Positions 13,206-61,030 of a DNA stretch of 64,000 bases are shown one piece after another (within the stretch, counting starts at the first letter, position 1; every line of letters starts with the position of its first letter). Position numbers and translations under genes: made by a program. Source of the DNA: Biomphalaria glabrata (lineage: Eukaryota > Mollusca > Gastropoda > Planorbidae); contig NC_074724.1 in NCBI RefSeq assembly GCF_947242115.1, forward strand, positions 33,636,505-33,700,504, given 5' to 3'. The notes beneath the pieces were generated by a model. It was not told the DNA's origin, made no database searches, and worked only from the letters and a program-made list of their open reading frames with translations.

Positions 13206-16200
13206 ATGGAGAGAAGCGGTACCTACCAACTTAAAGCGCCCACCCTCGCTCCCTGCTCCAACAAGAATGACCTCACCCAGCTGAAAGACGATGCCTGTGG
13301 CCCTGTCACTTGCACCCGCCAGCCGGACACTTCCGGTTTGACCAGTTGCCAGTACTATAAAGTAATTTTTCTTTTTTTTTTTTAATTTGTTTTAATCATA
13401 TGATTTTTAAAAAGTTTTGTTATTATTATTATGCCTATTATCGCTTCAAAAGCATTCCTAATGTCATCCGTAGACTTGTATTTCACATTCACTGTCATTT
13501 AATCCTCATCGTTGTCATTGATGTATGTATTTTAAGTATTAAGTTTTAAATTCCAATTCAATTAGGGCATTTAGGGTAGACTTATCTGGAACTAGAATAA
13601 CACTAGATCTAGACTTATCTGGAACAAGAATAATACTAGATCTAGATTGATCGGGAACTAGAATAACACTAGATCTAGATCTATAACTATAGACTAAATA
13701 TCTATAGATGGCTGCCTGGTCGTGCGGTTTGCGCGCTGGACTGTCGTTCGGATCGACGGTCAAGGGTTCAAACCCTGCCCGCTCCCATCCCCCGTCGTCC
13801 TGCGGGAGGTTTGGACTAGGAAGTAAACTATCTTCAACTCTGAAGGAACATCCGAAACATGTAAAAACAAAACAAAACAAAACCAGATTGACCTATATAT
13901 GTAGGAACACAACTTAATTATCTTCTTTTTTGAAGAAACGTCTGATATTTTATCAAGACGTTCATTGAATTTCAATTGGAGGGGGGGGGGGGATGGGGAA
14001 GCGGTTCGTATGTTCCTTTGACCTTCTTACAGAGGAATATATTTCAATTGATGGCGGTCTTTGACTTAACCGCTGTAGGCGTATTATATTTTAATTTTAA
14101 AAAACTTGAAATATTTTTTTGTGAACAAATCTAAATATAACTAAATATAATTTTTAACTTGAGATGAAATGAAATTAAACGTATATTTTAAACATCTAAC
14201 TCACTATGAAAACACGTCATTACACTCTGGTATCCCGGAGTCGTCTGGCGTACTTATCCACTTATCTTATCTTGCATCATTCTACAAGGCCAACATTAAA
14301 GTGATGCTCTCTCTCAGTAGCCTATCACCCCTTTTTAAATACCTTTTCTAAACAAAGGATTCAATCATATCATGATAATATTAAATATTAATAGCACGCT
14401 GTACTGTATTTACATTATTTTCGTAATGAGAGCAATACGTTTTTGTAGTTAATCTGTTTTTTTTTTATATAAACAATCTCTGACCGTTGTTAATGCTAGA
14501 ACCAGTGGCGTAGCTTTGGTGGAGGGAGGTCCGATTTCGAAAATCCCCCCCAGGCCCCCACTTGAGGGGTCCCACACATGAGTGTCCGAAATTGTTTTTT
14601 ACATTAAATATTACGCCATTATCTAATGTCTTCATGTCGAATGTCAAAATGCATGGGCCCCTAAAGAGGTCAACCCCCCCCCCCCCCGGGACTCGAAATC
14701 CCTAGATACGCCACTGGTTAGAACATATGTTTAGTGACATCGAGGCCCCTAGTAAAATAAAGTAAATTGTCATCTACAGACAACTCCAGATGTGTGGGCG
14801 AACAATGCGGTCAGTGTTGGAGAACTCAAGGTGACAGCTTTTCGCTTTTTCATTTAGAATACTGCTATTCAGGCTCTCTGCAAACTGCTCCACGAGACAC
14901 TATCAACTTAAAGAGCTTGACAACTCTGGGCTCCAAGATAACGCAACACTTTAATGTCCAATAAATCACAGCAAATAATGTACAATTGGCAACACGTAAC
15001 ACAGAATGCACACACATTTCTCGGTTAAGAACCGTATCACCGTATCAACTCTTTTGCACTGGGTTCAACTGAAAGTCGCAACCTGTGGGCAGGTTAGCTC
15101 TTTGCAACATCACAGTTCTGACGTCACGTCCTGAACCTATAACTATAACCTCTCAATAATGTAGAAGTAGTTTCCCTTTTTTGATAACAGATAAAACAAA
15201 TATTAGTGATGATCATCGAACGAATCGGTTAATTTATTGCTTCACGTTTTGTTAGTTTCAGCTTCATCCGAGAATGCGTGTGCATAGAAATAACGCGTAC
15301 AATGAACCAAGGGGACGAAACCCAAAATTATTTAGCCATATCTCTGAATACTGATGGATTAATTTCCCTTGTCGGTATCAAACAAAATAATTAATTACGA
15401 GTAACTAATTGACTAATTGGTTAATTCGTGATTCATGTATTGACTTTGCCTATGAATAATCGTGCAAAGTTTCACTTTGATCTAAGAATGGGTGTGGTAA
15501 AAATACCGTGTTCAAACCTTTTTACCAGACAGACAGATAGACAGACAGACAGAGTGAGTTGATCTAAGCTTTGCAAAAAAATATAAAAAATACTTAAAAA
15601 AACAACAAAGCTTATATTAAGTGTATCAATTAGTTTGGATCAGTAATGTAATTAAATTTGTAATAAGCCTCAAACGACAATCTATGAAGGGAACTAATTC
15701 AACTTCAGTCAAGTACTATTTCTTTGGCTTGTAAAGGGATTAATTCAGATTATACCACCACTTCAGCCAAGTACTATTTCTTTCCCTTGTTTGAGATACC
15801 AACCAAAGTAATTTATAACCAATAGTGAATTAACTAATTGGTTAATTTTGTTTTATTATTGATTCTTGTGTGGTCAGGTAAAAGAAATAATTGTGCAAAA
15901 TTTCAGCTTGATCCGAGATCAATAACGTGTACAAACGTTTGGCCAGACAGACAGACAGACAGACAGAGTTGATATAAAAATGAATGACAGTGACGAGGGC
16001 ACTATAGAATTAGAACGTGATCCAGATTAGCTTGAACCAAATACCTGCTCCAGTGAGCTCGTGAATGACCTACAACTTTTCTTGACTTTCCAGCCAGAGA
16101 GCTTCAAGTATGATTTGTTCCGATACCAGCTTTATGCGCAGCCTGCTGGATACAACTGTCACGGGGAACAGGTGAAAACAGGTGAGCCATTGGAAATATT

Positions 16201-19200
16201 ATTGTAATATTATGTGTGGGCGTATAAGACATTGGCCCCAATAGAAAGAAAACTATATGGAGAGCTCCCTGATTTGGAAACCACTGCGCAGTTCATCTCA
16301 TGTAATGGTCTAGTCATATGAACACTCCAACATAACAATGAGAACGATGAAGAAGAAGAAGAAGAAAATGTGTGGGCGTGTGTGTCATACAGTGTGGTCA
16401 GCATGCGAGTTTGGAGTGGTTATATGATTTAAGATTCTTTAAATGATATATTTTTTTAAAGTGCACTTATTAGCGATGCTGCTTAATGGTCTTCCCCATT
16501 AAAGACACTTGAAGTCCATGCTTATTAATGTATGGAAGAATTACTTGCGACAATGGCAAGGGTAAGAAACAAACTTACTATTAATTATCATAGGAAATAT
16601 TATTCTATAGACGTAGAATCGTGTCTATAAGAAATCGCCAAATTTCTGCTTGAGTAACGAAAAAGCTTGCAAAAAAGTAATATATATGTGCGATAAATAT
16701 GTTTTGGTTCGGGTAGCTACTATTTCACATAATTACAATTTATATCTGTTTGTAATTATTATTTTTTAAAATTAGATAACATATATTTCGTTGTGATTTT
16801 TATGACGTTGAAAATCATTTTATAAGACAATCACGCTAGCCGAGACCAATCGTCATGGAACATTGACATGCACCGTCACAACCTGTGTGCAGTTTTGGCC
16901 AATAGGCCTGTACGACGTGGCAGCGAGCTGTTCGTCTCCACGGCCCAAAGGCTGTGACGTCGCAGGTCAGTGATGAGGCCTTCTATGACGAATGCTCTCG
17001 CGCTAACCCAGTGGCCAGTGTACATGGACAGTTCTGAGGTATTCCAAAAACATTAAGACTCAAATCTAAATCTTGTAAGATGTGGGGGACTCTTCGTCTT
17101 CGTTTACAAAGGAAGTGGAAACAAAAATTATCCTTTCTTTTCTTACTTGGCTTGTCCAACGTTATCCTTATGTTCCAGTCTGCAGCCATGTCAGGGTGAA
17201 GGTCGTTAACAAAGTGTGGTCACGTGATGTGAAGTGATACTGACACGTTTCTTTTTAATTCGACCGTTACTTTTTTTTTTTGGGGGTGGGGGGGGGGGGG
17301 CTACGTGTCCATGGACGTTTTGTCCAAGAGACATTTTCCCTTGAGAACAGTCGTTATAACAGGCCTCAACTCTGACCTGTGACGTCTCAGGTCAAGTGTT
17401 CAGGCCTGCTATTTTTCTTACATTGAACACTATTTTAGATTCACCTTCACTTATCCCATAGTCTGTTGGACCGTTGGGGCACCATACAGGATTTGTCAAC
17501 CGTCTTTCTCCACTCCTCTCTTTCTTTTGCCTTGTTGTCTTACCATCGCTTTCTCTGTCTGCCTCTTCTTCTTTTTCCTGGTATTGTTCCCTGAAGGAAG
17601 GTCTTTGCGGGTACCAAAGACCTTGTAATATGGCCAAAGTTAGCATCGTGAGGTCCAATCGCTCTAGTAACCCTGTCTCTTAATCTATTCGTTTGTGATC
17701 CGGTCTTTAAATGTGATACTTAGGATCCTTCTGTAACATCTCAATTCCATTGCTACTATCCTTCTGAGAACTGGCGTTTTCCTCTGCTCAGTTGACAATG
17801 CATGCTGAAAACTGTTATTGACGGTCGCAGGCTTATAGCACCAGACTGCTGGTAGACAAACCGCTGTAGGCATATCAACTTATAAAGCTTGAAATAACTT
17901 GAATAAAATCTTTGAGAACAAACTAAATATAACTTTTATTCCTCTTGAGATGAAGTGAAATTAAGTGATATTTAAACAAATCTTACTCTGGCATCCTTGA
18001 GTCGTATCACGTACTTAACACAGCTTACGACAGGGGCGTTTATCTTGCATCATTCTACAAGACTTACATGAAATTAATACTAACAATGGATACTCCCTTT
18101 CCATATCACCTAGGAAACACACACGCACACTCCTTAACAAGTACTTAATTGGCTTATTTCTCATGCCCTCTTTCTATTTCCTTATCAGTACCCAACAAAC
18201 AGTACGACGCCCCAACCACAGATGTAAGGGCCCTGAGACAAACTATGTACATCCCCGTCGTACCTACTAAGCCAGGTGGGGAGAGAGATGTCACGTTCCC
18301 GATGACCCCTCAGACCATGGGTCAACCAGACGTGACCACGGCGTGCTGCGTTCCCGTGATCCCTTGCAACCCGGGATTCCAGAACTTGACTGCTAATATT
18401 TACCCTGACCCCAGGGTCGTCTGTGACACCTACAACAGGTAAGCGTTATAACTGACACCTTCAACAGGTAAACGTTTTGCCTGGGGCACCTACAGAAGGT
18501 AAACGTTTTGTCTGAGGAACCTACAGCAGGTAAACGTTTTGCCTGGGGCACCTACAAAAGGTAAACGTTTTGATTGGGGCACATACAGCAGGTAAACGTT
18601 TTGCCTGGGGCACCTACAGCAGGTAAACGTTTTGCCTGGGGCACCTACACCAGGTAAACGTTTTGTCTGGGGCACCTACAACAGGTAAACATTTTGTCTG
18701 GGGCACCTACAGCAGGTAAACGTTTTGTCTGGGGCACCTACAACAAGTAAAAGTTTTGTCTGGGGCACATACAACAGGTAAACGTTTTGCCTGGGGCACC
18801 TACAACAGGTAAGCATTTTTTAAAGACGCAACAGCGGTGTAAATAATCTCAAGAGGAATTGTTGGTATCTTAACAATAAACATATTTCGGAGTGTACAAA
18901 GTATAAACTGAGGCACCTATCGAGAGTGTCATTTAATCTAGTAGAAATTGCGAACTGTCCAGACGTGATGTCAAAAACAAGACTGACCATTTCCCCTTCC
19001 TCCCCCCACCACCTAAAAAAATGGATGAACAAAGTGAAAACAACATTATTCAATGAACACCTTCACGTCTTATTGAGCATCACACATCGTAACAGATCAT
19101 CGGACTCAGCTCACTGTGACATCACCCAAAAGAAAACAAAAAAAAAGAAATAAAATACTTCACTGCCTATAGTAGGTCAGGTTACTTGTATAATTAATAA

Positions 19201-22200
19201 ATTAAAAAAATACAAAAATATATAGAGTTATTTTTTTTTACCTTAACATTTCTGAAAATAGATAAATTGATCTTAGTACGAAATCAAAATGATTAGTAGT
19301 CTTTTAGCTAATAAAAGCAGACTTTGATTTCTTGGAAATGAAAAAAAAAAAAAAGAGAAAAATTTGAATTTCATTTTTTTCAAAAGGGAATACAATAACT
19401 GATGTAATCAAGAGTTTAGATAATGCAGTACATTTAACTCAGTATTGAAAGGGAATTTGTCTATTGTTGTCACTATCTATGTCTATCGCCTCCTTCAGTC
19501 TCGAATCGACTATGGATCATCTCATGGAAATGAGATAAATGCCTGGGCATTAGATGTGGGCGTAATGATGTCGCCCACACATTAGTCCCCCCCCCTCTTC
19601 ACGCAGCTTATGTATCCAAAGGAACAGCAGTGCCGATACAGTTTGGGGTCAGCGGAGTCGTAGGTTCTGCCAGGGTGTAGTATTGTGTGCTGCTAACTGC
19701 CTTAGGGTCGCCAGCTCCTGATTTTTCCTCAGGGTTGACTCCCGAAGCCTTTCACATTAAGTGGGTATAGCTGCAAGGCAACAGAGGTTTGAATTCAGAG
19801 TTTTCCTTCTCTTAGGTGGGTAGCCAGCCATGGCTAACGAGCCTCTCCTGCCCGAAGCTTACTGGTTAAGGCGCCCCTTCTCCTGTTAGTGAGAAGAGTT
19901 CCGACGGACTCAACATCTGAGCCACACGTGAAGGCCAGGAGTTGGACTGGTTTCCAGAGGCTATTTGAGACTCCTGCCATTAGGAAGCATTTTATAGGTA
20001 GTGGAGTGCTTACATCCATTACCATTTCCGGCAATGACAACCTTGCGGAACAATGTTGTCACTATCACTATACAAAATAACCCTAACTTCTCAATAAACA
20101 AAACTCGACTGCCTCTCAAGACACTAATCTATCAACTTCTTTTATTTCATTCCTCACAGTATAGTCTTTTCTTTTTTTTTACTTATATATTGTCACTACG
20201 CTATAAAACCTAGACACACAAAATAAAGAGTAACAATCAAATCCTAACTTTTACGCGCTGAATTCATAATCGTAACCTAATAATTTCCATCCTGTTAAGG
20301 TGTAATCTTGCCGGGCAGAATTCTCATGGGCGAGTAGACATCTGTTCGGACAAGCAGCAAATTGCCAACCAGCAACAGCACTTTGAGCCTCCGCCCCTGC
20401 AGCAGTTTATGATGCCTCCGTCTAACCTTCAGTCGAGTGGCTGCTGTGGCTTCCCACCCACGTTTCCACCTGTGAACCAGGTAGCCTACACTTTTACTTT
20501 CTGTTGTAGTCTGTCTTGTGATCTGTCTGTCTTATATGTCTTATAGTCTGTCTTATAGTCTGTCACTCTGTCTTATATGTCTTTAAGTCTGTCACTATGT
20601 CTTATATGTCTTTAAGTCTGTCACTGTGTCTTATTTGTCTTTAAGTCTGTCACTATGTCTTATATGTCTTTTAAGTCTGTCACTATGTCTTATATGTCTT
20701 TTAAGCCTGTCACTATGTCTTATATGTCTTTAAGCCTGTCACTATGTCTTATATGTCTTTAAGCCTGTCACTATGTCTTATATGTCTTTAAGCCTGTCAC
20801 TATGTCTTATATGTCTTTAAGTCTGTCGCTATGTCTTATATGTCTTTAAGTCTGTCACTATGTCTTATATGTCTTTAAGCCTGTCACTATGTCTTATATG
20901 TCTTTAAGTATGTCACTATGTCTTATATGTCTTTAAGCCTGTCACTATGTCTTATATGTCTTTAAGTCTGTCACTATATCTTATATGTCTTTAAGTCTGT
21001 CACTATGTCTTTAAGTCTGTCACTATGTCTTCTATGTCTTTAAGTCTGTCACTATGTCTTATATGTCTTTAAGCCTGTCACTGTCTTATATGTCTTTAAG
21101 CCTGTCACTGTGACTTATATGTCTTTAAGTCTGTCACTATGTCTTATATGTCTTTAAGTCTGTCACTATGTCTTATATGTCTTTAAGTCTGTCACTATGT
21201 CTTATATGTCTTTAAGTCTGTCACTATGTCTTATATGTCTTTAAGTCTGTCACTATAACTTATATGTCTTTAAGTCTGTCACTATAACTTATATGTCTTT
21301 AAGTCTGTCACTATGTCCTATATGTCTTTAGGGCTGTCTTATAGTCTGTCTTATATGTATTTAAGTCTGTCTTATAGTCTGTCTAAAATGTCTTTAAGTC
21401 TGTTTATAGTCTGTCTTGTATGTCTTAAAGTCTTGTCTTATTGTTTGTCTTATATGTCTTAAAGTCTTGTCTTATTGTTTGTCTTATGTCTTTAAGTCTG
21501 TCTTATATGTCTAAACATCTTGTCTTAAAGTCATGTCTTATAGTCTGTCTTGTATGTCTAAAAGTCTTGTCTTGAAGTCATGTCTTATAGTCTGTCTTAT
21601 ATGTCTTAAAGTCGGTCTTTCGCCTAAAACTGAACAATAGTCAGCAAAAGTGTTGCATAGTTTTCTTTTGTTAGAGTTTACAATTATCAACTATAGCAGC
21701 GATGCACAAACTACGGCCCGAAGGCCACATCTGGACCCGTGATGTTCTTTTATCTGGCAACTTCTGTCTGCAGTGCAATAATGAAGCCTCATCACAGCTA
21801 TTGGTCTCCACTGCCTGCAGGTTGCGACGTAGCAGGTCAGTGTTCAAGCCTACTATGAGCTTGGCCACTGCATAACGTTGACTCCAAGTAGAAGGTCTAA
21901 GTCCTCGTTGGAGCGTATCATTTAAAGTAGTGTGGCCATTTGAATTCGCTGAGATTTACATTGATCGTACGCTGTTGATAGGTCACCACGTTGAAACGTA
22001 GTATACTATTAATTAGTTCCCCTTGTGAGCATCTGTTATTCGGTGTTAAATGGTACAAGTTAATTGTGCACTGTTAATTTGACGTTATTACGTTTAGCTT
22101 TACGGTCCTGCCCATCAGCAAGCAGGAATGCCCATGATGGGCTACAGTCAAGGGGAAGGCCATCCACAGCAGCTGCATCAACAGCCGTACGCCACGAATC

Positions 22201-25200
22201 AGCAGGCGGCCTTACAGCAGCAGCAACAGGCTGTTGACTACATGCGTGGGTCCTCGTGTACCAACCCTGCCTGTGTGGATGCCATTGACGGTAAGATTTG
22301 ACGATCTCTTTGAATAAAGATCTATAGTATTATTGTAGTAATTATCTGCCTTTACTTTTCCGCAGGGCCAGATTTAAGGAAAGGCAAAAGGGACGGTAAA
22401 GTGCTTGGCGTCCAAACCGAGGTTCCAGGTTTGAATCCTTGTTAAGACCGGGAATTTTAATCTCGGGATTTGGGCGCCTCTGAGTTCACCCAGCTTTAAT
22501 GTGTACCTGACATTGGGGAAAGTAACGGCGGTTGGTCGTTGTGCTGGCCACATGATGCCCTCGTTTACCGTGGGCCACAGAAATAGATAACCTTTACATC
22601 ACCTGACCTATAGGTCGCAAGGTCTGAAAGGGGATCTTTACTTTTTTTTTTTTTACATTTTTGTTTTCTAATTTTTACGACTGCCAAAATTATCATGATT
22701 TAGAAGTGTACGCTTGTAGCATGCTCGGAATAAGTAAATACAGCTCCAGTGCGTCTACGAAGGGCCTTACCCTCTACAAACTAAAAAAATATACACTTTT
22801 TAAAACTAAAATATGCATATTAAATATTTTTTAAAGGAAATTGAAATTAAATTTACAATATATCTATTTCATTCTTCTAAAATATAGCATGCCTTTAGAT
22901 ATAAGTATTTTCATTCATAAGTGGATCTTTATTAAAGCTTTCAAACCATTGTTGAGGCCTCCCACAAAAATCCAGTCCGGGGCCTCTACATACTTAAATC
23001 GGGCCCTGCTTGGCTATGTTGTAAGGACGGCTTTTTTTGTGGCGGTACGCACCGGTACGGCGTACTGGCACCTTTTTGAATGTGGGGAAAAAATATTACT
23101 TTTCTTGTATTTTAGCGTATATTATTAATTTATTCGTAATTAAAAGTTAGGCAATCAATCACTGAGTACCGGCACCTATTCACGGAGTACCGGCACCTAT
23201 TCACTGAGTACCGGCACCTATTCACGGAGTACCGGCACCTATTCACTTAGTACCGGCACCTTTTCATGGAGTACCGGCACCTATTCACTGAGTACCGGCA
23301 CCTTTTCACGGAGTACCGGCACCTATTCACTGAGTACCGGCACCTTTTCACGGAGTACCGACACGTATTCACTGAGTACCGGCACCTTTTCACGGAGTAC
23401 CGACACGTATTCACTGAGTACCGGCACCTTTTCACGGAGTACCGACACGTATTCACTGAGTACCGGCACCTATTTTTACAAAAAAAAACAACCTGGTTAT
23501 AAGGAACCACTGTAAGTCTGTAATCCTTTAGTTCTTATCTGTTAAGCATTCACGGCAATTTGTTTCCTTTTGTCCTTTAGATGGAATGAATCTAACCGGC
23601 AACAAACGAGCGGTGAGTTCTTTGTGTTGGATAATAATAGTAAACTTAATAATAATAATAAGGATTAAAAAAAACGCTACCATTATTGACATCGCCGTAC
23701 CACTGTCTCATAATTTAAGAAAAACTAAAATGGAAAAACAAAGAAAATATGGGAACCTAGGCTCGGAGATTAAGCGATTATAAAAGTTAACTAAAATAAC
23801 AATATACCCTTTTGTTATATCAACCGAGAGGATAATGACAACTGACCTCACAGATACCTTCAAGGCTATTAACATCCCTAAGAAGATTCTCGTGGCCTGT
23901 CAGAAGGCGGTACTGCTGCAGGCCTGCCACATCACTAGAAAATTCCCCAGGAGACGCTGATAAAGGAACTACGATGAATTTTGTTTCTTTTTAACGAAAT
24001 TCGACCCTGGCAGTGCCAGAGAATGAATACTCGTTCGTTTCTAACATAATAATAATAACAGAGAGAGAGAGAGAGAGAGAGAGTAGTTTAAAGGCTTAAT
24101 GTATATCTTTATAAGTAAGATATTGTCATTGATCAAAGGTTCATACATTGATGGAATGTCTGTTCATCAGGTGTGCTCCAGTAACAAGACGTTTAGGTTT
24201 ACAGATAGAGCCACCAGAGCGATACTGGCCAGTAAGTATGTGCTCCTTAGTATTTTTTTTTTTATCTATTTAAGTTCTAATCCATATAACGGAATATAAC
24301 TGCTGGATTGTTGTTTTTTTAAACGACTCACTGTGAAGTTAAATAGAGATCTACATGAGCTCGTTTCGACTATGTTAATTATGGCAGAATATCTTATCTT
24401 CTTAACTTAATAGGGGCACCTTTACTTTAATACTATATATGTAAGCAAAGCACTCCATTGATACAGTAGTACTGAAAAGTTTTTAATTATCAAAGTTGCT
24501 TTAACCAGCTTGTATTGTTGTCTAGTTTGTTGTCACGAGTTGAGTCTGTGACCTATTTCGACCAGTTTCTAGAAGCTCGAGTTCAAACCAGTGCAAGTGT
24601 CCAGCGTAAACAAGTTAATTTTAGATATCCAATCAAAGAAAGAGGTTAAGGGAAAAAATAGCACACGTCAGCTTCTAGAAGGTCAAAGTTACTAAAATAA
24701 TTATCTGAGAAGGTTCCATGATTCTGGAACGTACGATCAAAGAAAGTATAAATAAGGGGAAAGTCAGTTAGACGGGGTCCTCGCTCGGCCCTCGCATAGT
24801 AGTAGTTCTTGTAGAGCGATGGTCCTCGCTCAGTTCTTGATTAGTAATAAGTTTTGTGATATTAGCGGGTCCATTAAGTAAAGTTTTAGTAGTTGAAGTT
24901 GAAGTTATACTAAGTGAAGTTTTATGTATCTTTAAGTTTTATTTAAGAAGTGTCAAGTTGTTATTGAATTAAGAAGTTAATTTGATGTGAAAGTTGAAGA
25001 AGTTATTAAAGAAGTTTGAAGAAAATACAGAGAGATGTTTCTTTCTTCATTTCATTGAATTGTCAAGTTTGATAATATAATCCCCGGCAAGTGTGATCGT
25101 CATTTCATATGAATTCATCAACTTATTAATACAATCCTTCGGCAAGTTCGTCACATTTGTCCAATAGATATTCGTTTCTAGCGCTACTGATGTTTCAATG

Positions 25201-28833: not shown

Positions 28834-31169
28834 CAGCGATGCCCACACTACGGCCCGCGGGCCAGATCCGGCCCGCGACGTGCTTCTATCCGCCCGCCAA
28901 CGCATGGGAACAAAATGTAAAAAAAAAAAACAATTAAAAATTTAAAAAATGTTAACAAAAAAAATTAAAACTTTTTTTTTAATTAAAAAATTAGAATGTT
29001 GAAAAAATATTCTCTTTAAGTTAGGATTCTCACTCATTCTTTGATGAATTCCATCTTTAGGTTTGGTATTCTAATATTCATAGTAAATATTTTTTTGTAT
29101 TGTAAGAACACAAGTGTTGTTTTTTTGTTTTTTCAATGGCGATAAAACTAGACAGCTATTTTTAATTCTTGGAAAATTTCGCTACTGTCTTGAGCTAGCC
29201 GTGTCCTTGACACCTTGTGTGTGCAACACAGAGCATCATTGATGCATCGTTTTGGGTCGTGTACTTTTGATGTCAAAGCGATTGGTACCGCAGTGTTTAA
29301 TGTTTGTGATTTAATGAAATGGGAGAGCCTAAGAAACGAAAAGTGAACTCTGAATGTAGAAACTTTCAAGAAAAGTGGACAGATCTTTACTTTTTGTGGA
29401 ATAGGATAGTAAGCCAACATGTTTGTTTTGTAAAGAAAGTGTGGCTGTTTTTAAAGAACATGAAGCCAAACACATATACACATATAGTGGCATCCTTGGT
29501 TTCAGCCGCGAAGACAAGATTGTCAAGTTACGACTAGAGATTGGGGGATTGACAAGAATATTTCACAAAAAGAGAAGAAAATGAGTCGGCGATAAGGGCC
29601 AGCTACAGAGTTGCTCACATCTTAAGTAGAACAATGAAGCCTTTTTCAGATGGCGAATGTGTAAAAAAGTGCTAGCAGTGATGGAAGAAATGTGTCCTGA
29701 AAAGAAGAATGCAGTAGAAGCTGTCGGCCTTTCTCGCATGACAATTACAAGGCGAGTGGAAGATATGGGGGTAAATCTTCATTCATAATTAAAAGACAGA
29801 GCAGCAGAATTCGAAATGTTTTCTATTCCTGCTGAAGAGTCCACTGACATAACTGATACTGCGCAACTCTTGGTATTTATTCGCGGTACAAAGAGCAACT
29901 TTGATATAACAGAGGAGCTAGCAGCTATGAGGAGCATGCATGGGACAACAACTGGAGAAGACCTGTTCAAAGAAGTGTCAACCATCATGGAGGACCTTTC
30001 TCTTCCTTGGAATAAATTAGTTGGAGTGACTACTGATGGCGCTAGAAATATGGTTGGACTGACAGCAAGAGTTATTAAAAAAGTTATTGAGTCAAATGGA
30101 ACTGAACCGCTGCGGCTTCACTGCATCATTCACCAACAAAATATCTGTGGAAAGGTTTTGAATCTGGACCATGTGATGATGATTGTGCTCAACACTGTAC
30201 ATTTCATCAAATCACAAAAGCGTTGAATCACAGAACTTTCAAAGATTTTCTGACAGAAATAGAGTCCGAATATGAAGATGTTCTATTTCACAGAGAAGTG
30301 CCGCGTTGGTTAAGCCGAGGAATGGTGTTAAAACGATGTTTTTTTTAAATCAAAACAAGTGCCACAACTGAACGACCTTTCATGGTTGTGGGATTTGGCT
30401 ATTTTATTCGACATCACATCTAAATGAACTTAACACCAAACTACAAGGGAAAGACAAATTGATTTCGCATGTGTATGCAGACATATGTGCTTTCCAAACA
30501 AATTGCAACTCTTCATTCAACAGGCGGAAAGGGTGCATCTTGACCACTTTCCAACCTGTACCACTGTACAAAATGATAAGCAGCTAAATATGTCTCTCCC
30601 AAAAGAAAGAATGATCCAACTTCTGAGGCTCTTGATGGATAATTTCAGTGAAAGATTTGTGGATTTTCAGAATTTAAAATTTTGAAAATCCGTTTGCTGC
30701 CGATGTATCAAGTGCCCCGACAGATCTACAACTGGAACTGATTGACTTACAAAGCCAGATATCCCTGCTTGACAAATTTCAAGTGATGCAGACCATTGAC
30801 TTCTACTCCATGTTACCTGCTGAAGCGTTTCCAAATCTTCGAAAACAAGCGCTAAGGATGATCACAATGTTTTCAAGCACTTATTTGTGTGAACAAACTT
30901 TTTCAATGATGAAACGGGCGATAACCATGTTACGAAATCGCCTCACAGATGAATATCTAGATTCAGTGCACTGAGTTGGTGTTTCATCTTTACAGCCAGA
31001 TACTCAGAAGATGGTTTTGGATAAACTTCATGCATCACATTAATTTATGTAAGTAGGTCCACAAATAAAACTATTAAAAATAGCTTATTGAATTTTTTTT
31101 TCTTTTTGGTGTTTCATCACGAATGCCGAAAATTATAATGGCCCGCAGACCGAATAAGGTTGGGCATCA

Positions 31170-35824: not shown

Positions 35825-36905
35825 ATATAATACAGACGTTACTTCAAAAAAGAAGATGATTACGTCCTACGCGTCATGCATTTAGTCATGCATATTAACC
35901 AATGACTTAAATTCAGCCAAGTCACTGGTTTTCCTGGCTAGCTCAGGCAACTCATTCCATGCTCTAATAGCACTAGGGAAGAAGGAGTATTTGTACAAAT
36001 TTGTCCTAGCTTATGGGACGAGGAATGTGCCTTTATCTTTGTGTGTTTCAGAGTATTTTATTAAATTCTGTTTTTGTATTTGAAGATTATGGTTCAGTGT
36101 TTTATGTATGATTGCTACTTTACTTTTGAGCCTTCTGTCCTGAAGGCTTTCTAAATTTAGTGATTTTACTAAAGGTGTTACTCTAGTCAAATGTGAATAT
36201 TCGTTTGTTATGAATCTCACTGCTCTATTTTGTGTCAAACGGAGGATGCATATTCTATTATTGGCCTAACCAAGGTTATATAACATTTTAGTTTTATGTT
36301 CTTATTTGATTTATAGAAATTTCTTTTAATAAATCCTAATGCTTTGTTTGATTTTTTTGTAGTTTCATCAATATGTGGATTCCATGACAGTTTTTCATTT
36401 ATTATAACACCTAGGTATTTTGCGTTTTTAGTCTGTGTTACTGGTTTGCCATGAATAAGATAAGTGGAATTAATTTGTTTTAGTTTTTTTGTTACTCTTA
36501 ACAACTGACATTTTTCTGGGTGGAAAGACATGCTCCAATTTGATTCCCATTTCTGTAATTCATCTAATTCTCTTTGTAAAATATCTGTGTCTTGTGTTGT
36601 TTTTATTGTTCTATATATTATGCAATCGTCTGCAAATAATCTGACTTTTGTTCCTGAAGTAATGCAATTTGGTAAATCATTTATGTAAATTAAAAATAGT
36701 AGTGGACCCAAGACTGTTCCTTGAGGTACACCTGAGTTTACTGTTATCGGTGTTGATTAGAGCCATTTATTATTACAGTTTGTTCTCTCCCTATCAGAAA
36801 ATCTTTAATCCACTGATGCAGTGGACCATTAATGCCGAAATATTTTAATTTTTTAAGCAAACAATGGTGGTGAACTTTGTCAAAAGGGAACAGTACTATG
36901 AATTT
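35825..36905 (-). mobile_element. Jockey-superfamily LINE, 5'-truncated, decayed
   Basis: Minus-strand coding for reverse transcriptase: FPFDKVHHHCLLKKLKYFGI (RT block 3/4), then MGPLLFLIYINDLP and RLFADDCIIYR with the catalytic FADD, YLGVIINEKLSWN, and the C-terminal RAVRFITNEYS at 36238..36011. At least two frame breaks (about 36745 and 36236). The 3' end carries GATAA repeats (35806..35826, read inverse as TTATC). Tail fragments of the same family lie at 40635, 42185, 45560 and 54235. Confidence 0.88.
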
Positions 36906-38094: not shown

Positions 38095-39655
38095 CATCCT
38101 CATTTCATCCATACATACAAAGATGTAGCATATTTACATTTCGCACACACACACACACAAAGATGTAGCCTATTTACATTACACACACACACACACACAC
38201 ACACAAAGATGCATCCTATTTACATTACACACATACACACAAAGATGCCGTCTATTTACATTACACACATACACACAAAGATGTAGCCTATTTACATTAC
38301 ACACATACACACAAAGATGTAGCCTATTTATATTACACACACGCACAAAGATGTAGCCTATTTACATTACACACATACACACAAAGATGTAGCCTATTTA
38401 TATTACACACACGCACAAAGATGTAGCCTATTTACATTACACACATACACACAAAGATGCCGTCTGTTTACATTACACACACACACACAAAGATGTAGCC
38501 TATTTACATTACACACATACACACAAAGATGTAGCCTATTTATATTACACACACACAAAGATGTAGCCTATTTATATTACACACACACAAAGATGTAGCC
38601 TATTTAAATTACACAAACATACACACAAAGATGCAGCCTATTTACATTACACACACACACACACACAAAGATGCAGTCTATTTACATTACACACATACAC
38701 ACAAAGATGCAGTCTATTTACATTACACACATACACACAAAGATGTAGCCTATTTAAATTACACAAACACACACACAAAGATGCAGCCTATTTACATTAC
38801 ACACACACACACACAAAGATGCAGTCTATTTACATTACACACACACACAAAGATGCAGTCTATTTACATTACACACACACACAAAGATGCAGTCTATTTA
38901 CATTACACACACACACCCAAAGATGCAGCCTTTTTACATTCCGCAAACACACAGACACAAAGATTTATCCTAATTATATTCCACACACACAAAGATGTAG
39001 TCTATTTACGTTACACACATACACACAAAGATGTAGCCTATTTACAGTATATACACACAAAGATGTAGCCTATTAACATTCCACACACACACACACACAC
39101 AAATATAGCCTATTTACATTCCACACACATAAAATGATGTAGCGGATTTACATACCACACGCCAAAGATTGAGTCTATTTACATCCCCCCCCCACACACA
39201 CACAGAGATGTAGCCTATTTACATTCCACACTCACACACACACACACACACACACAAAGATATAGCCTATTTATATAACACACAAAAGTAAAAGTAGCCT
39301 ATTTACATTACACACACAAAGATGTAGCCTATTTACATAACACACAAAAGTAAAAGTAGCCTATTTACATTACACACACAAAGATGTAGCCCAATTACAT
39401 CCTAAACACACCAAAGATGTAGCCTATTTACACTCCACATACACACAGAGATGTAGCCTATTTACATTCCATACACACACACACACACAAAGATGTAGCC
39501 TATTACATTACACACTCACACAAATGTAGCCTATTTACATTCCATACACACACACGCACACAGATGTAGCCTCTTTACATTTCCCACACACACACACAGA
39601 TGTAGCCTCTTTATATTTCGCACACACGCGTGCAAAGATATAGCTTATTTACATT
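38095..39655 (+). repeat. 1.5-kb minisatellite with embedded (CA)n
   Basis: Unit ACACACACACAAAGATGTAG plus CCTATTTACATT, of variable length because the CA run expands and contracts (about 28 to 46 bp). Frames of up to 145 codons here are purely repeat-derived. Confidence 0.95.
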
Positions 39656-39659
39656 CCAC

Positions 39660-43045: not shown

Positions 43046-46000
43046 ATGTCAGACATAGATTCAGAAGAAATGGACGAAGAGCAAATTTCATTGGGTGTAA
43101 GTTTTATACTAAAATATATTTATTTTTGAAGATCGCTGATTAGTTTACATAGGCCTACTATACTATAGGCTAGTATAGGCCTACTAATACTAGATCTACA
43201 TATAAAACTATACTCACTATACAGATAGTTCTAGATTCTAAGTCTGTTCACTCATTTTATAAATTTCTGACCGTTATCACTTTTCCTTATGATGATCATG
43301 ATTATTTTGGACTTTATCATTATTATAAAGTTAATTACAAAATAACTAGAAACAGATCTTTAGCACTAAACAGTTTTATTAAAACTTTGATTGTAATATA
43401 AACTTTAGGCCCATAATTCTAGATCTAGTTAGACTATTGTTAATTGTACTTAAACTTTGGCTAAGATGAAAAGTGCAATGGATTGCCAGTGGACTGGTCC
43501 TACTTTTGAAAAAGATCATATTCGATTCAATATAATTTACTTATTAGCTCCATACAACACTTTCAATATGATTCTGGTCTCTCTTTTATATTTGAACTCT
43601 TTCCATATCAGAGAGGCTTAAATTAGTATCACTGTTTAAAGAAAAAATATTTTAATAGACTGGCTAAAGGTTATAGCACATTTATCTACTTTCAAAGGAG
43701 TGGAACAGATCTATGTGACAATAAAAATTCATGTTTTTTAAATAGTGACTTTTTCACAACTTTTTTGTTTGGTTTTGAGATAGCTACTTGGTCATTTCTA
43801 TGCATTTTTTGAAAAACGAGAAATTTGTAAAACACAAAAAAAATGCATATAAAAAAATATGTATATGTAAAAAAAAAAAAGTGAATTAAATTCATTTCTT
43901 TCAGTAACAAATTTTAACTGTGTCATTGTTTGTGGCTTAAACAGTTACATTTACATTTCCTAGTATATGATGAGTAAACTGAGGGAATTCAAGCTGGTTT
44001 TAAACTTCAGATTGATACATTCAATGTTATGGCCAAATAAATAAACAAAAGCATCACTTATTTTAATCATTGGAATACTTTAATTCCTCCCAATTTATAA
44101 AGTTTTTATCTTTTCTTTTTTGTCCCTTTTTATTTTTAAAAAGACTTATGAAGGTGGAAGAAATGAAAGAGAAGAAAGACATGGCCAGGGAAAAGCAACT
44201 CTTCGAAATGGAGACACATACGAAGGAATGTATGAAAATGGCAAAAGACATGGAAATGGAGTTTACAGGTTCAGTAATTCTGTTCATGGCTCCTTTTAAA
44301 AAATATTTTCCAAACAAAGCAGTATATCGTTGATATGACATTTTATTTTACTTCTATTGTAATGGGTGCACATAGTAGCCTCTTGTGTTTGTGATTTTTA
44401 AAGTAATTCTTCCAAGGTAAATTAATTTTGGGAAATTTGGGATTATTTCTTATGAATTATAATCCAACTCTGATCCTTGTGACACTTTTCATTAACCGTT
44501 GGGCTCAGAAAAAGAAGAGTTCTATGTCATCTGATCTACACATCCATGTTTCTCTCGTTTCTGTAGTAATATAGAGCCGTAACAATATTTTTTTTAAATT
44601 CCTTGTTTGTTTGTTTTTTAAATAAATTTATCAAAGTTACAGATTTTTGTAAGGAAATAAAATACTATTTATTATGTTAATTTAATCTGAAAATGTAACC
44701 ACATTGGTCATTTTAAATTAAGTTAATTAACTGTGTGGTCAGATCTTATTCCCTATGAATACAAAGATCTCTGTGGAGTCTTTTCTTTTGAAAAACTGAT
44801 TAAACTCATTCATAATGCAGGAGAATATGCTAATTAAAGCTTTCCCATGTCTGATATACAAGCATTTATATTGCCTACATAATTCATTATACTAGTCTAC
44901 AGTAGCCTATTATTACTTCCTTTTATAATTAACTTAAAATTTAAAAAAAAAAATATATATATATAAATATATATATTGTTAAGTTTATGAGTACTTGTAC
45001 AATGTAAAATATAGTTTCTGCTAATGTTGTCAAAAACTTTTATTTGGTTTTAGATTTAAAAATGGAGCAAGATACCTCGGAGAATATTTAAGGCACAAAA
45101 AACATGGTCAAGGAACATTTATCTACCCTGATGGATCCAAATATGAAGGTCAGTTCCTGTTTTTAATAATATTTTTTTTTCCTTTAAAGTTGTTTGCAAT
45201 TTTTATAATGTTCAATAATTTTATATAAAAATGTCAATGTCTTGATCATTATTGATATATATTGATTATATAAACATTTAGAATTATTTAGGCCTCAGAA
45301 ATGATGTTTACAGATTTAATGAATCTGTTCATGGCTCCTTTATTGAAATCTCATTCTCATTAAAGGTTTAATGTTGTATCTCTCTTTAAATTCTCTGCTT
45401 TTTAGAATGAGCAATACTTGTGCTTCTTGGTAAAGGTCCTATTGGTCACATAAAGACAACATAGTTTAATAATATAGAGTAAATAAAATACTAATGTTGT
45501 GTATCAGTGTCTTATGTTTGTAAAAAGAAACAGGATATCTATCATATTAATGTTTAACTTCAACCATACACGGTGGCATTAGAGCATGGGACAAGATGCC
45601 TGAATCAGCCAGGAAAAATCAATGACTTTGTAGAGCTTAAGTCTCTAATTAACATGCACAAATAGATTGACACATGAATATGCATAGGATATGACTATCT
45701 TATTCTTTGAAGAAAAAAAAAGTAAAGTTCCCCTTTCAGACCTTGTGGTCTATAGGGCAGATGATGTAAAGGTCATCTGTTTCTGTGGCCTACTGTTAAC
45801 TAGGTTGTCATGTGGCCAGCACAACGACCAACTGCATTTACTTTTCCCCAACTAATGTCAGGTACCTTTTAGAGCTGGATGGACTGAGAGGTGTCCGAAG
45901 ATCCCAAAATTAAAATTTCCAGTCTTCCCCAGGATTCAAACCCCAGACACCGGTTTGGAAGCCAAGTGCTTTACTGCTGAGCCACAGCGACTCCATAGTA

Positions 46001-49000
46001 TCTTTTGAAGAATTGTCCGTAATTAAAGATATTCTGCTATGGTCACTTAAACCTAGAAGAAGATTTAAATTAAATTAAATTAAACTTAAATTGTTCACAA
46101 CAAACTGTAGGTACAAACCATAAAGGTGGTTACCAATAAAAAAAAGTAAAACATATCTCTTGTTTTTACAGGGAGCTGGGTGGAAGATCAGCGAAGTGGT
46201 TTTGGTAAATATTACTATGTGAATGGTGACACTTACGAAGGTGAGTGGCAGAACCACGTACGGCATGGCAAAGGAACATATCTGTATGCTGCAACTGGTA
46301 CGAACTATGTCGGCTTATGGAACAATGGCAAATGGGAAGGACAAGGAGAGTTGGTGCATGCAAACCACAAGTTTGTTGGACTTTTTAAGGAAAACAGAGT
46401 AAGTCTTCTCATACTTTTTGCTTCTTATTTGTGGAGAGAAGAGCATTCATCATGCACACTTTTACAATGGTTTAGTGCTGTCTATTTTTTTAACTTTTCA
46501 TTCTAATTTTTTGTTCTTTCCACCTAATTAAGTCGAAAGTATTTCTATTCTGTCTGTAGCAAAATTTCATCTAATAAATTATTTTGTTTTGTTTTGTAAG
46601 TTTCAAACATTCCTTTAGAAATTATTAGAATATATCCTAGCTAAAACTTCCTACAGGATGGAAGCTTGATGGAAGTGGGTAGGATCAAACTTGGGACCAT
46701 CCTCACAACAGTCCTAACCACATACCACACACCAAATGACCAGCTACTTATCTAATTTTTGAAATGCTCAATGAAACATGCCTAGAAGAGTAAATTGAGG
46801 TCCTAGTGGCCATTTTGAGATCCATAATGGACAAAATCACTATGGCAACTAACTTTTAAAATTATTTAAAGACATGTTTGAAATATTACATCATACAATA
46901 TGGATGACTACATTGTCATGTTGTATGGACTACAGTCGCGAAAGCTATGGGTTTGAATTTTGCCTGCCACCATCCCTGCTGTCCTGTGGAAGGTTTGCCT
47001 AGAATATAAAAATCTTCAACTCTGAAGTAGCATCCATGATATGTAAAAGAAAACAAAGCATATGCATATGCATGTAGGCAATTTGTTTCTATTCCACTGC
47101 TAAATAAATGTACTTATTTTATAATCATTTCCATGCTCATTACTTAATTCTGTTTATATTCACTTTTAGCCTGAAGGCAAAGGAAAATATATTTTTGATA
47201 TTGGATGTGAACAACATGGAAAGTATGTGATTGTGCCATCCGAAAAAGACGACAAGGGAGAAGATGATGAGCCTTCAGCTGCGGCTACAACAAAATGGGT
47301 TGCGGGGGAAGTTCTACCTGTGCATATCAAGACAGCTGAAGAGGAAGAAGAGGAAAGAATGCTGGCAGAAGCTGAGAAGATTAAATTGCAACTAGGTAAG
47401 GTTGAAAAGTTGGGCTTTCCTTCACCTTCATCATATTCCTTGCCCTTCATTATCTATTATTTTCTTATTATTGTTAGAGGTTTGTGATTAAAAAAAAAAC
47501 AACAAGCAACAATGGCAATGTCCTCGATTCCGAAGATTAGGGATGAATGCAGTGTTTCACATGACTACTCAAACCCAGTTGCAACCTGCATATTTTTCTG
47601 CATCTCATGCAGACAAAGCTGTTGTCTGCCAGCCATCTATTTAAGTTTTGTTTTTGGCTTCTGCACCTGTCATCAAACAAGATTAATGATGAATGCAGTA
47701 TTTCACATCAACCCTGTTGAGACCTGCATATTTTTTGCATCTCATGCAGACAAAGTAATTTTCCACAAGGGGTCCATTTAAGTTTTCTTTTCGGCATCTC
47801 TGCTTGTCTTCAAACAAGAAGTATCAATGAATAAAACATAAAAAAAGAAACTTAAGATAACATTCTGATATTTTTCTAATGGTACCACTCAGGGGATGCT
47901 ATCTATGAAAAGGTGCAGCTTTCCTGTTATGTCCCAGGCTAAATCCTATAGCATAAAGCTCAGTTGCCTAACCTTTTTTTGGCACAGGATCTCCAGAAAA
48001 TTTCTGAAACTAATGTTACAGGCCACACTAGCACAAAAAATTTCATATGCACTTTAGGTTATCATGGTGAATTTTTATTCTTTTATTTTCCTTGTCAAAG
48101 TGGGGATGAAAGAGAAGCCTGATCACCCGGTTCAACAGTTCTGCCATTCCTTTCCATAAAGGGGACATCATCAGGATTAAACCAGTCAAGCTGGAGTGAA
48201 GGTCCTTACATGATATTGTGGTGGTTGCAGAATAGGAAAATTTCCTTTTAGTTAGTGCAGCCCAGGAATAGAGGAACTGCACGCTAAGTAAATAGTAGTT
48301 ATGGTCACTGGTATTGTGGAACTTCACACAGGACTTGAGGTGAAGAGATCCTGCTTTGTGCCTGTCTGGAGAAATCCTTTCTGATGGTTAAAGCGATAAG
48401 GGTGACACATAGACACTCCCAATTTCCAAATGAACTTTTTAAAAAGTATATTCAGTAGTGGCTCTTTTTTTATTGGATCTGACTGGTTACTTTGTTGACC
48501 TTGCTTTTAGGTACCTGAAATCTACTAGGAAAAATAAAAGGGTAAAAGGCGATCCAAAGGCAGACCCTGAATGCGATGGATTGATGATGAGAAGGCTCGG
48601 GGTTAGGGCATGGAGACAAAAGGCCCAGGAGAGATCTGAATGGAGGGATGTGTTGAAGCAGGCCAGAGCCCTCCATAGGCAGTAGTGGCACTGGGATGGA
48701 TGGATGGAATAGTTATTGTGCTAATTGCAGGCTTCTAATTAATAGGTCATAGAAATGAATTAACTTTGTTTAAAGAGAATTTTTCCCACAGAGAATTAAT
48801 CTCTTATACACATTATCATTATAATTCTTTTTTTGGCTTTTAACCTTTAAGTATGCATTTGATAACAATCCTCATATAATCTTATTCACTGCACTAACAG
48901 AAGCAGCAGCAGCAGAAGAGCCTACTAATGCAGAGGAAGAAGACAAACCCCCAGAGGAGGTACCAACAACCGGAGAAGATGCCGTAGACCCAGCACATGA

Positions 49001-57703: not shown

Positions 57704-58188
57704 ATGGCAGCCCTTTATGATTATAGTTCGTATTCTTCAGCAGCTTCGGATACAGAATACTCACGAGAACATCTTGAGGATTTATCTTACGGAAATCTAA
57801 ATACAGTGCCCGAGTGTATTTTACAGCGCTCAGCGGTTCTCCATTCTCTTCAACTTGACAACAATGATATTACTAGTCTACCGAGTTGTATTGGACTTTT
57901 CAAAAAATTAATAGTTCTCGACATTTCTTCCAACAATATGACATTTATTTGCGATGAGATTTGTCAGCTCACAAAACTAAGAACTCTTATTGCTAAAAAC
58001 AACAAATTAACCACCGATTCTTTTCCCAAAAATTTCGGATCCCTAAAAATGCTGGAAGTTATAAATGTGAGTGGCAACAATATTGAACTATTTCCACCTC
58101 AATTTACAGAATTGGATAAACTACAGGTACTTCATTGTGGAGGAAATAATATTAAAGAGCTACCTAACACTATCAAACATTTAACAAG
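57704..58188 (+). CDS. LRRC58: Leucine-rich repeat-containing protein 58 homologue, first coding exon
   Basis: The 161 codons plus two bases run from an ATG in good context (GCAATGGCA) to a GTAGGC donor. After about 30 residues of Ser/Tyr/Glu-rich start, LRRs of the LxxLxLxxN type follow: LHSLQLDNNDITSLP, LIVLDISSNNMTF, LRTLIAKNNKLT, MLEVINVSGNNIELFP, LQVLHCGGNNIKELP. The succession LIAKNN, INVSGNN, CGGNNIKELP matches LRRC58 (LLAKNN, LNLSGN, LGGNQLQSIP in human), including the exon end before the next LRR. LRRC58 has been reported as a ubiquitin-ligase adaptor, which cannot be judged here. Remaining exons are not found up to 64000. Confidence 0.85.
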
Positions 58189-58189
58189 G

Positions 58190-61030
58190 TAGGCCTTTTA
58201 TATTAACTTTTTAATACTTATTTAACTTATGTTTTAACTTTTTCCTCAAGAGGCTCAAGAGATAAAATTCTAATAAGTCAATCAGTATTCCCAATAATTT
58301 AAAAGAATGTTTCACTAAGATATTTTATTTATAATTCTATGAAGATCTAGAATCTAATTTAGGAATTCTAGAATAGATTTAGACTATAAAAGTTTGATCC
58401 AAAGATATATTTATTATTATCTGTTATTAGTATATTGTATAAGAATTATAAATTATGAACTCTCTTCGTTGTTTTCAATGAATTCGAAGATATATTTGAA
58501 AGCCAATCTTCATTTTGAAAAGTTGATTACAGTAAGACAAGAATAGTAGGGCCTAGTTCATTGTTTTCTAATTTTGTTCTAAGTTTTTTGGTGAGTCCCT
58601 TTTCTTTGCTGTCGGCTACTCTGTTTGCCTCATAACCTTGAACACCAAAATGGTTGTCACGTTCACATTTGATTTCTTGAAAGTATTTTTATATCTCTTA
58701 AGTTGACCCCCTCTGGAACACCTTTCATTGCACATTTCCCCACAAATGAGTCATGTAGGAAGTCCAACATGTCCAACCCATTGTAGTTGTAATCCTTTTT
58801 GTTCTATGGCATGGAGACTGTTTTCTGTGATGTGTAGGATTTCACATTAGTAGTACATGAATATATACAAAAGTAGTGGAGAAAATATGTGGCTGCTTTA
58901 CTGATTGTAGTATACCCCAAATACATAACAACCTACTAGTGTAACGTACAAAGCGATATTTAAAATTTCTTGCACTAAATGTAGATACATCTATCTCTCT
59001 CTATATATATCAATATAAATCTTAGTGCAAAATGCACCCCCTGGCGTGATTTTACGGGTACAAATTTTGTATGGACAATGTTTTCAAATATTGGCAAAAT
59101 CTTACCCCATGGAATTGTGTTTGCCCATGTTGAAGGTTGTTTTTTTTTACAACTTAGGCTACATTGTTCAAGTTTGTAAGTTAAGTCCATGATTATAAAA
59201 TGTTGGATCCCACTGGTTTGTATTGTTTTTTTGTTTTTTTTTAATATAAATACTGTTGTGTATTTTTTAAAAATTTTCCTTGGTTAAAAAAAAAAAAAAG
59301 AACAAACAGATGTTCTAGTTTTCCTAATCACTTAAACCCTTTCTGCTGCAAGGACCTTCTGGGTCATATAAAGGTCATGGCTTGAAAATAAAATTGCAAA
59401 CATTCGAGAATGCATAAATTGTTCCTTTCTCCATAACCATTGAAGTTATACAATCGCTCATATTTAAAAGGCATTTCATCAATAACCTTTATTTTTTGCA
59501 AACACATTGTATGAGCTGTTTACACTGTAAATAGCTTTTGCTGTCAATGGGCTATCAAAGTTGTAACTATGTTGGTAAAAGCATAGATACATATATATAT
59601 AACACTAATCCATTCTGAGTAAAATTTAGCTGCAGTTTGTCAAAGTGAGGATGAGTAGCACTTTAGCTGAACTTTTTCATGCAACCAAAATCTTCCAATT
59701 CTTTGCTTTTAGGGAATGTGTGAAAGCCTTGTCCTTGATCCACCTGTACATCATTTCATATATTTGTTTTCCTTGTTTCCTTTTTCACCCCACCCTGCAA
59801 CATGTAGGACTGTGTTTTTTAACATAATATGAATATATTATTTAAACTTTTTTGGCTTTGACAGTGCTAAGCATTGTAATGACTTTATAGTTGGACGCGT
59901 AAAAGTTGGGACTAATTGGGATTTTTCTTTAGAGACGTAACTGTACATTAAAAACTTTGAATGGAAATAGCTAGAGACAGATTAACGGACAAGAGACCCA
60001 CTTCAGTATTGCTCAGATAAAAGGATAAGTTATGTTTTTTAGGTTTAGCAATGTTGGAACAGGCCCATCTTTTGAAATAAATAGTTATATTGATAACTAG
60101 GCAGTTTTCACTTAATCTGTTGTGTTATGGTTTGTTGTATCATCTACAATTTTAAGTATTTGAACGTGCGCCACAAAATAGTAACCAGCAACATCTCACC
60201 AGCATGTTATTGAAAAGCAGATTTCATTTGAGACTTTCATGTTAATAGTAGAATGTAGAAAGAGAGGGAAAGCAGTCGTGTAAAGAATAATTATAAAATA
60301 GGAATACCTGTTTCCCATTGTTATAAAGAATTTTTTTTTGTAGACTCTACCACTTGTTATTTGCAAGCCTTAAAATATTTAGCAATATTTTAAAACAAAT
60401 TGTAACATTTAATGTTGAGTTTGGATCAGTAAAAAAGGGTGTTGGTAAAAGCTAAGTGGAAAAGTAGCGGAACTAACTGTCTTTTTGCGTGTGTTCACTA
60501 CTTATTCTGTAGGTAGATTTTGGTCAAAGGTTAGTTAGCAGGAGTATATTTAATTATTTCTAGTGCTTAGCCATAATAAGCTTAATGGAGGAGGGGGGAG
60601 AACAATAAGAAATGGCAGATCCATTGGGGAAGAATGTGTGTATGGTGTGGGACTGTATAGCAGAATTAGCAGACATGTCTTTTCATTAATTGGAGGGGAA
60701 AGATATTCTCATTTTAGTAATCCTGGATGGAGAGAGGGCTGCAAAGATATTTATAACATTTTTTTTTTTACAAATTACATGAGATTGCAATTTTTTTTTC
60801 TGGTTCTTTACCTCTGGTTTTGAGGACCATCAGTTTTCCTTTAGGTAACAGCATACATGTAGGTGACCTTTTCGTTCCTTTTATGCAAATACATGTCTGC
60901 TGTTGTAGTCAAGCTGTTACTGCACCTGCAAGCTTTTGTTTAGCATTACTTTGAATAAACTATGTCCATAGCAGTATGAAGACAATCTGAATTTTTTTTT
61001 AAACATATTTATATATATTTTTTAAGGAAG
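58190..61030 (+). other. LRRC58 first intron, no exon found
   Basis: AT-rich sequence with no LRR coding on the plus strand. Several short frames are open but lack family features. No terminal repeats noticed. Confidence 0.45.

Follow-up and report, generated by a model that had tools for sequence, protein, structure and literature searches.

A minisatellite derived from the 5' splice site of a predicted exon in Biomphalaria glabrata, with the same stop predicted for every downstream donor

The 5' splice site of a predicted coding exon in Biomphalaria glabrata was found to be repeated head to tail, giving an array of 13 copies within the 64,000-nucleotide stretch of DNA that we analysed (hereafter the window), and use of any of the twelve downstream copies as a splice donor is predicted to lead to one and the same truncation. 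A first-pass annotation of this DNA had described a minisatellite that grew out of the exon's 5' splice site and whose units each contain a motif resembling a donor, and the sequence bears this out. The array is a minisatellite in the usual sense (head-to-tail units of 10–100 bp with sequence variants) and, more narrowly, a splice-donor minisatellite, since its unit lies across an exon/intron border and each copy carries a donor. The best supported reading, short of proof, is a neutral minisatellite that arose by tandem duplication of the exon/intron boundary, in which the first donor is used and downstream slippage is cleared by nonsense-mediated decay; we consider this reading probable. Neutral expansion was also the third of the options offered in the first-pass annotation, and it fits best among them.

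Tandem Repeats Finder reported the array at 18427..18819 (period 31, 12.7 copies, score 562, 87% matches). When the copies were aligned on their GT, the full array comprised 13 head-to-tail copies at 18419..18819, with a unit of ~20 exon and 11 intron bases and similarity ending ~20 bases before the GT. The start proposed earlier (18427) therefore matches the program's call but falls short of the unit itself, which runs ~8 bases deeper into the exon (GTCTGTGACACCTACAACAG compared to GTCTGGGGCACCTACAACAG). The motif CACCTACAACAGGTAA had 13 matches in the array and a single weak match in the rest of the window, compared to a mean of 0.59 and a maximum of 3 matches in shuffled sequence. No inverted repeats were found in the array region and no relatives of the array among viral contigs.

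Later copies resemble GTCTGGGGCACCTACAACAG^GTAAACGTTTT (^ marks the exon/intron boundary), with GT present in 13/13 copies and AG^GT in 12/13. The original description of a strict 31-bp step applies to eleven of the steps between donors (interior donors at 18468, 18499, 18530, 18561, 18592, 18623, 18654, 18685, 18716, 18747 and 18778) and fails for the first, from donor 0 to donor 1, which is 29 bp long with two bases missing; the added lengths derived from it (29, 60, 91 and so on) were correct. Nor do all twelve later units consist of the exon end plus CAGGTAAAC, as copies 2 and 4 carry AAGGTAAAC, copy 10 carries CAAGTAAAA and lacks the –1 G, and the last copy carries CAGGTAAGC, like the first. 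GTAAGC was kept in copies 0 and 12 alone, which were identical at 26/31 bases, and unique intron sequence lies 3' of copy 12. Copies 0 and 1 contain GACACC, and copies 2–12 contain GGCACC or variants thereof; copies 2–9 are mutually similar (mostly 1–5 of 31 bases different), but copy 1 stands apart, with 7–10 differences from every other copy.

Table 1. Coordinates of the array and of the predicted gene around it (positions within the window; ^ marks an exon/intron boundary).
Feature	Position	Strand	Description
Exon 1 of predicted gene	13206..13361	+	Hand assembly from GT/AG borders
Exon 2 of predicted gene	14780..14830	+	Hand assembly from GT/AG borders
Exon 3 of predicted gene	16094..16181	+	Hand assembly from GT/AG borders
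Exon 4 of predicted gene	18189..18438	+	Acceptor TTTCTATTTCCTTATCAG^; frame open and consistent across the joins to the other six exons
Intron 4	18439..20299	+	1861 nt counted from the first donor; acceptor CCATCCTGTTAAG^
Copy 0	18419..18449	+	GTCTGTGACACCTACAACAG^GTAAGCGTTAT; end of exon 4 with its 5' splice site (GT at 18439); span given in 31-base register (copy 1 begins at 18448, the first step being 29 bp)
Copies 1 to 11, interior	18448..18788	+	+5 G absent from all
Copy 12, last	18789..18819	+	GCCTGGGGCACCTACAACAG^GTAAGCATTTT; donor GTAAGC like copy 0, GT at 18809
AATAAA hexamer	18875..18880	+	56 nt 3' of array
Exon 5 of predicted gene	20300..20480	+	Frame DTYNR^CNLAGQNSHG kept open only via the first donor
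Exon 6 of predicted gene	22098..22290	+	Hand assembly from GT/AG borders
Exon 7 of predicted gene	23581..23612	+	Hand assembly from GT/AG borders

The consequence of choosing a later donor follows from the reading frame of exon 4, whose first codon takes one base from exon 3 and whose 3' end lies two bases into a codon (phase 2, AG). Skipping the first donor would cause AG^GTAA to be read as AGG-TAA, i.e. Arg182 followed by a stop. Any array sequence retained in this way (29 to 370 nt) begins with the GTAA of the first copy, so all twelve downstream donors are predicted to give the identical stop after VVCDTYNR and thus a 182-residue truncation, and this stop is present even where the retained length is divisible by three (60, 153, 246 and 339 nt). 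The earlier expectation that only some extensions would keep the frame was thus too generous, as none is open, and variable exon ends lose their proposed role as a source of protein variety. Judging from the sequence, the array could alter the amount of full-length mRNA, with protein variety limited to this one truncation. Since exons 5 to 7 lie 3' of the stop, nonsense-mediated decay, an established pathway, would be expected to act on messages made from downstream donors.

Donor strength was estimated as the energy of the duplex formed with the U1 snRNA 5' end (ViennaRNA, unmodified bases), a rough scale on which the consensus reaches –14.0 kcal/mol. Copies 0 and 12 each had a modelled pairing energy of –11.0 kcal/mol, compared to –8.3 for eight of the interior copies, –6.8 for copies 2 and 4, and –3.0 for copy 10, such that 12/13 copies paired at –6.8 kcal/mol or better. 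The seven predicted donors of the gene ranged from –3.2 to –11.1 kcal/mol, copy 0 (CAG^GTAAGC) being second best, and most interior copies were comparable in U1 pairing to some of the other predicted donors. The near-consensus donor that the first-pass annotation attributed to each unit is therefore found in the first and last copies but not in the eleven interior ones, which have no +5 G and by this model are weaker yet non-negligible. An influence of the array on splicing is possible on this scale, since 10 of the 20 sites at –8.3 kcal/mol or better within 13206..23612 belong to it, and the modelled donor alone gives no reason why the first copy must win, the last having the same GTAAGC and equal pairing.

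These energies bear on whether the array might act as a tunable expression switch, in which later donors compete with the first, the stop-bearing fraction decays, and copy number sets the amount of full-length protein. The eight interior donors at –8.3 kcal/mol surpass four donors predicted elsewhere in the gene (–3.2, –6.6, –7.7 and –8.2), the last copy equals the first, and the stop is identical in all downstream products, all of which would suit such a switch; however, the +5 G was lost from the interior copies and the donor columns show no detectable constraint, and we regard a switch as unlikely. Its further development into a rheostat, in which more donor copies bring more downstream splicing and decay so that a hypervariable repeat sets protein dose with the protein sequence unchanged, is less probable again.

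The statistics on constraint were as follows. Loss of the +5 G in 11/11 interior copies is the reverse of what would be expected under selection for working donors. Variable columns made up 3/9 of the donor and 12/22 of the rest of the unit (Fisher P = 0.43). When individual changes in the interior copies were counted instead, 4/28 fell in the nine donor columns (binomial P = 0.059) and 1/28 in the GGTAA core, fewer than expected (binomial P = 0.046), although the copies are related by descent and both of these P values are consequently too small. Selection on the donor motifs is thus not well supported, the weak signal obtained from cell counts being gone when columns were counted.

Under the preferred, neutral reading, ~31 bases across the exon/intron boundary (20 exon, 11 intron) would have been duplicated in tandem, and expansion would then have come mostly from interior copies in which the +5 G of the intron had already become A, as suggested by the GACACC/GGCACC pattern, the divergence among copies, and the restriction of GTAAGC to the two outermost copies. 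Growth directed into the intron would have left the exon and the first donor intact. The spliceosome would take this first donor, matched in strength within the array by the last donor alone and the only one that would give an open mRNA; rare use of a later one would retain 29 to 370 nt, introduce the stop after Arg182, and have the message removed by nonsense-mediated decay. We infer the dominance of the first donor, the decay of the other products, and the neutrality of the array.

The overlap of a minisatellite with a splice site can be explained here without a special cause, because such arrays are dense in both gene and window. The window contains 11 minisatellite arrays covering 7% of its length, and the four in the gene (13577..13679, 18419..18819, 20507..21613 and 23159..23474) occupy 18.5% of its span. 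When these four were placed at random, 86% of trials had at least one of the 12 splice sites covered, and a single 401-bp array placed at random covered a splice site in 30%. Arrays that damage splicing would be removed by selection, and growth from the donor into the intron would spare the exon.

All exon borders of the seven-exon gene model were drawn from sequence alone and assembled by hand from GT/AG signals. The seven joined exons amount to 951 nt, or 317 codons from the ATG with no stop, compared to 15 and 13 stops in the remaining two frames, and the GC content of exons (0.47–0.58; exon 4, 0.55) exceeds that of introns (0.35–0.41). Exon 4 is on this basis a convincing predicted coding exon, and the earlier identification of the first unit with its end, followed by GTAAGC, was confirmed. 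The gene probably extends past exon 7. Its predicted protein is Cys-, Pro- and Gln-rich and had no match in Pfam, NCBIfam, PDB or viral contigs. The absence of a match in the three protein resources would be consistent with a faulty model in which 18189..18438 is no exon of an expressed gene, and copy number could also have been mis-assembled; errors of this sort are improbable in view of seven exons with GT/AG borders and exon-like GC that share one open frame, and of differences between copies that reach 10/31 bases, unlike those of a stuttered assembly.

Two of the gene's other arrays were also noted. The 1.1-kb array at 20507..21613, made of TATGTCTTATATGTCTTTAAGTCTGTCAC-like units, starts ~26 bases past the predicted exon 5 donor (20481) and is thus a second minisatellite near a 5' splice site in the gene, with no overlap with the donor. 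The array at 23159..23474, just 5' of exon 7, is built from a 21-bp unit present fifteen times (42-bp higher-order unit) and is open in two forward frames and one reverse frame, with STGTYSR heptads; a weak Pfam YadA_head match just below the cut-off is most likely spurious.

Because AG^GTAA places a 3' splice site directly against a 5' splice site, the copies could in principle serve recursive (nested) splicing, with stepwise removal of the array that leaves no trace in the mRNA and with the last copy's CAACAG^GTAAGC as the ratchet point. Donor strength within the array indeed peaks at the first and last copies, and joining these two across 370 nt would restore CAG^GTAAGC exactly. However, pyrimidines make up 35–53% of the sequence before each AG, compared to 65–88% in 5/6 predicted acceptors of the gene, the origin of the copies from an exon end accounts for AG^GT without any function, and intron 4 is only 1.9 kb long, recursive splicing being known mainly in very long introns (cf. 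PMC2773006); we consider this reading very improbable. Least probable of all is a U1 sponge, in which thirteen U1 sites hold U1 snRNP beside the AATAAA that follows the array and so block a short terminal-exon transcript, since the AT-rich intron 4 contains seven AATAAA/ATTAAA hexamers, making such proximity expected, and the one at 18875 is a putative site.

The architecture of the array is already known from at least two human genes, IFI6 and CBS, which shows that arrays of this kind can originate and be maintained in human genes. In IFI6 (6-16), a minisatellite supplying several splice donors was described in 1995 (Turri 1995, as cited in PMC4526556), and two downstream repeat units are reported to serve as donors, giving three mRNA species and different isoforms (PMC4526556). 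IFI6 matches the Biomphalaria glabrata array in having tandem units that offer donors 3' of the exon's own; in IFI6, however, downstream units are really used and isoforms are made, whereas here an immediate stop is predicted from each, and none of the twelve donors is predicted to give an alternative protein isoform. Human CBS has a 31-bp VNTR, c.1444_1467+7(16_21) (Lievers et al. 2001, as described in PMC2630376), which is polymorphic, with 16–21 copies and single-base differences between units. As read from the VNTR name, this unit also crosses a 5' splice site, with 24 bases in the exon and 7 in the intron, but the gene is human, the polymorphism is known and the sequence is unrelated, compared to the one haplotype seen here; the equal 31-bp period is a coincidence. 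Our searches of the literature yielded no VNTRs on exon-intron borders beyond these two. Particular to the present array is that frame and phase are predicted to make every downstream choice equivalent nonsense.

New introns have also been proposed to come from tandem copies of splice-site segments, and there are cases in fission yeast. Intron gain by AGGT tandem duplication resembles our array in that a short gene segment carrying a (proto-)splice site is copied head to tail, but places a new intron inside coding repeats, whereas here an existing donor was multiplied within an intron whose acceptor lies 1.5 kb past the array. Creation of the intron by the array was rejected, since an open frame requires the acceptor at 20299/20300, outside it, and an intron bounded by two repeat copies does not result, as AGG-TAA follows whichever copy the frame is continued from.

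The array amounts to a natural experiment on 5' splice-site choice, with many donors in near-identical surroundings within one intron, two of them strong, the others weakened at +5, and each wrong choice leading to the same predicted stop. If polymorphic, it would allow the effects of position and copy number on donor choice to be measured.

The window looks eukaryotic, given its interrupted genes and ~36% GC. No tRNA or Rfam RNA genes were found in it, including by ARAGORN at 13705..13880, where there is a tRNA-like SINE-type sequence (GGTCGTGCGGTTTGCGCGCTGGACTGTCG...GGTCAAGGGTTCAAACCC) that may resemble freshwater-snail SINEs, a likeness that would suggest a gastropod source. At 44067..48685, predicted exons match Pfam MORN (E 6e-17 and 4e-7) and encode MORN repeats, presumably resembling a radial-spoke-type MORN protein, and a leucine-rich-repeat protein exon starting MAALYDYSSYSS lies at 57704..58192 (Pfam LRR_8, E 3e-13). 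Transposon-derived sequence includes a reverse transcriptase fragment on the reverse strand at 36235..36756 (Pfam RVT_1, E 4e-17), a retrotransposon remnant, and a hAT transposase C-terminal dimerisation region at 30678..30974 (Pfam, E 5e-5); the upstream ORF at 29789..30226, which had no match in Pfam, possibly belongs to this hAT element too. A large CA-rich array at 38113..39659 contains ~43 copies of a ACACACAAAGATGTAGCCTATTTACATT-like unit and has a GC skew of –0.37, a strong strand asymmetry.
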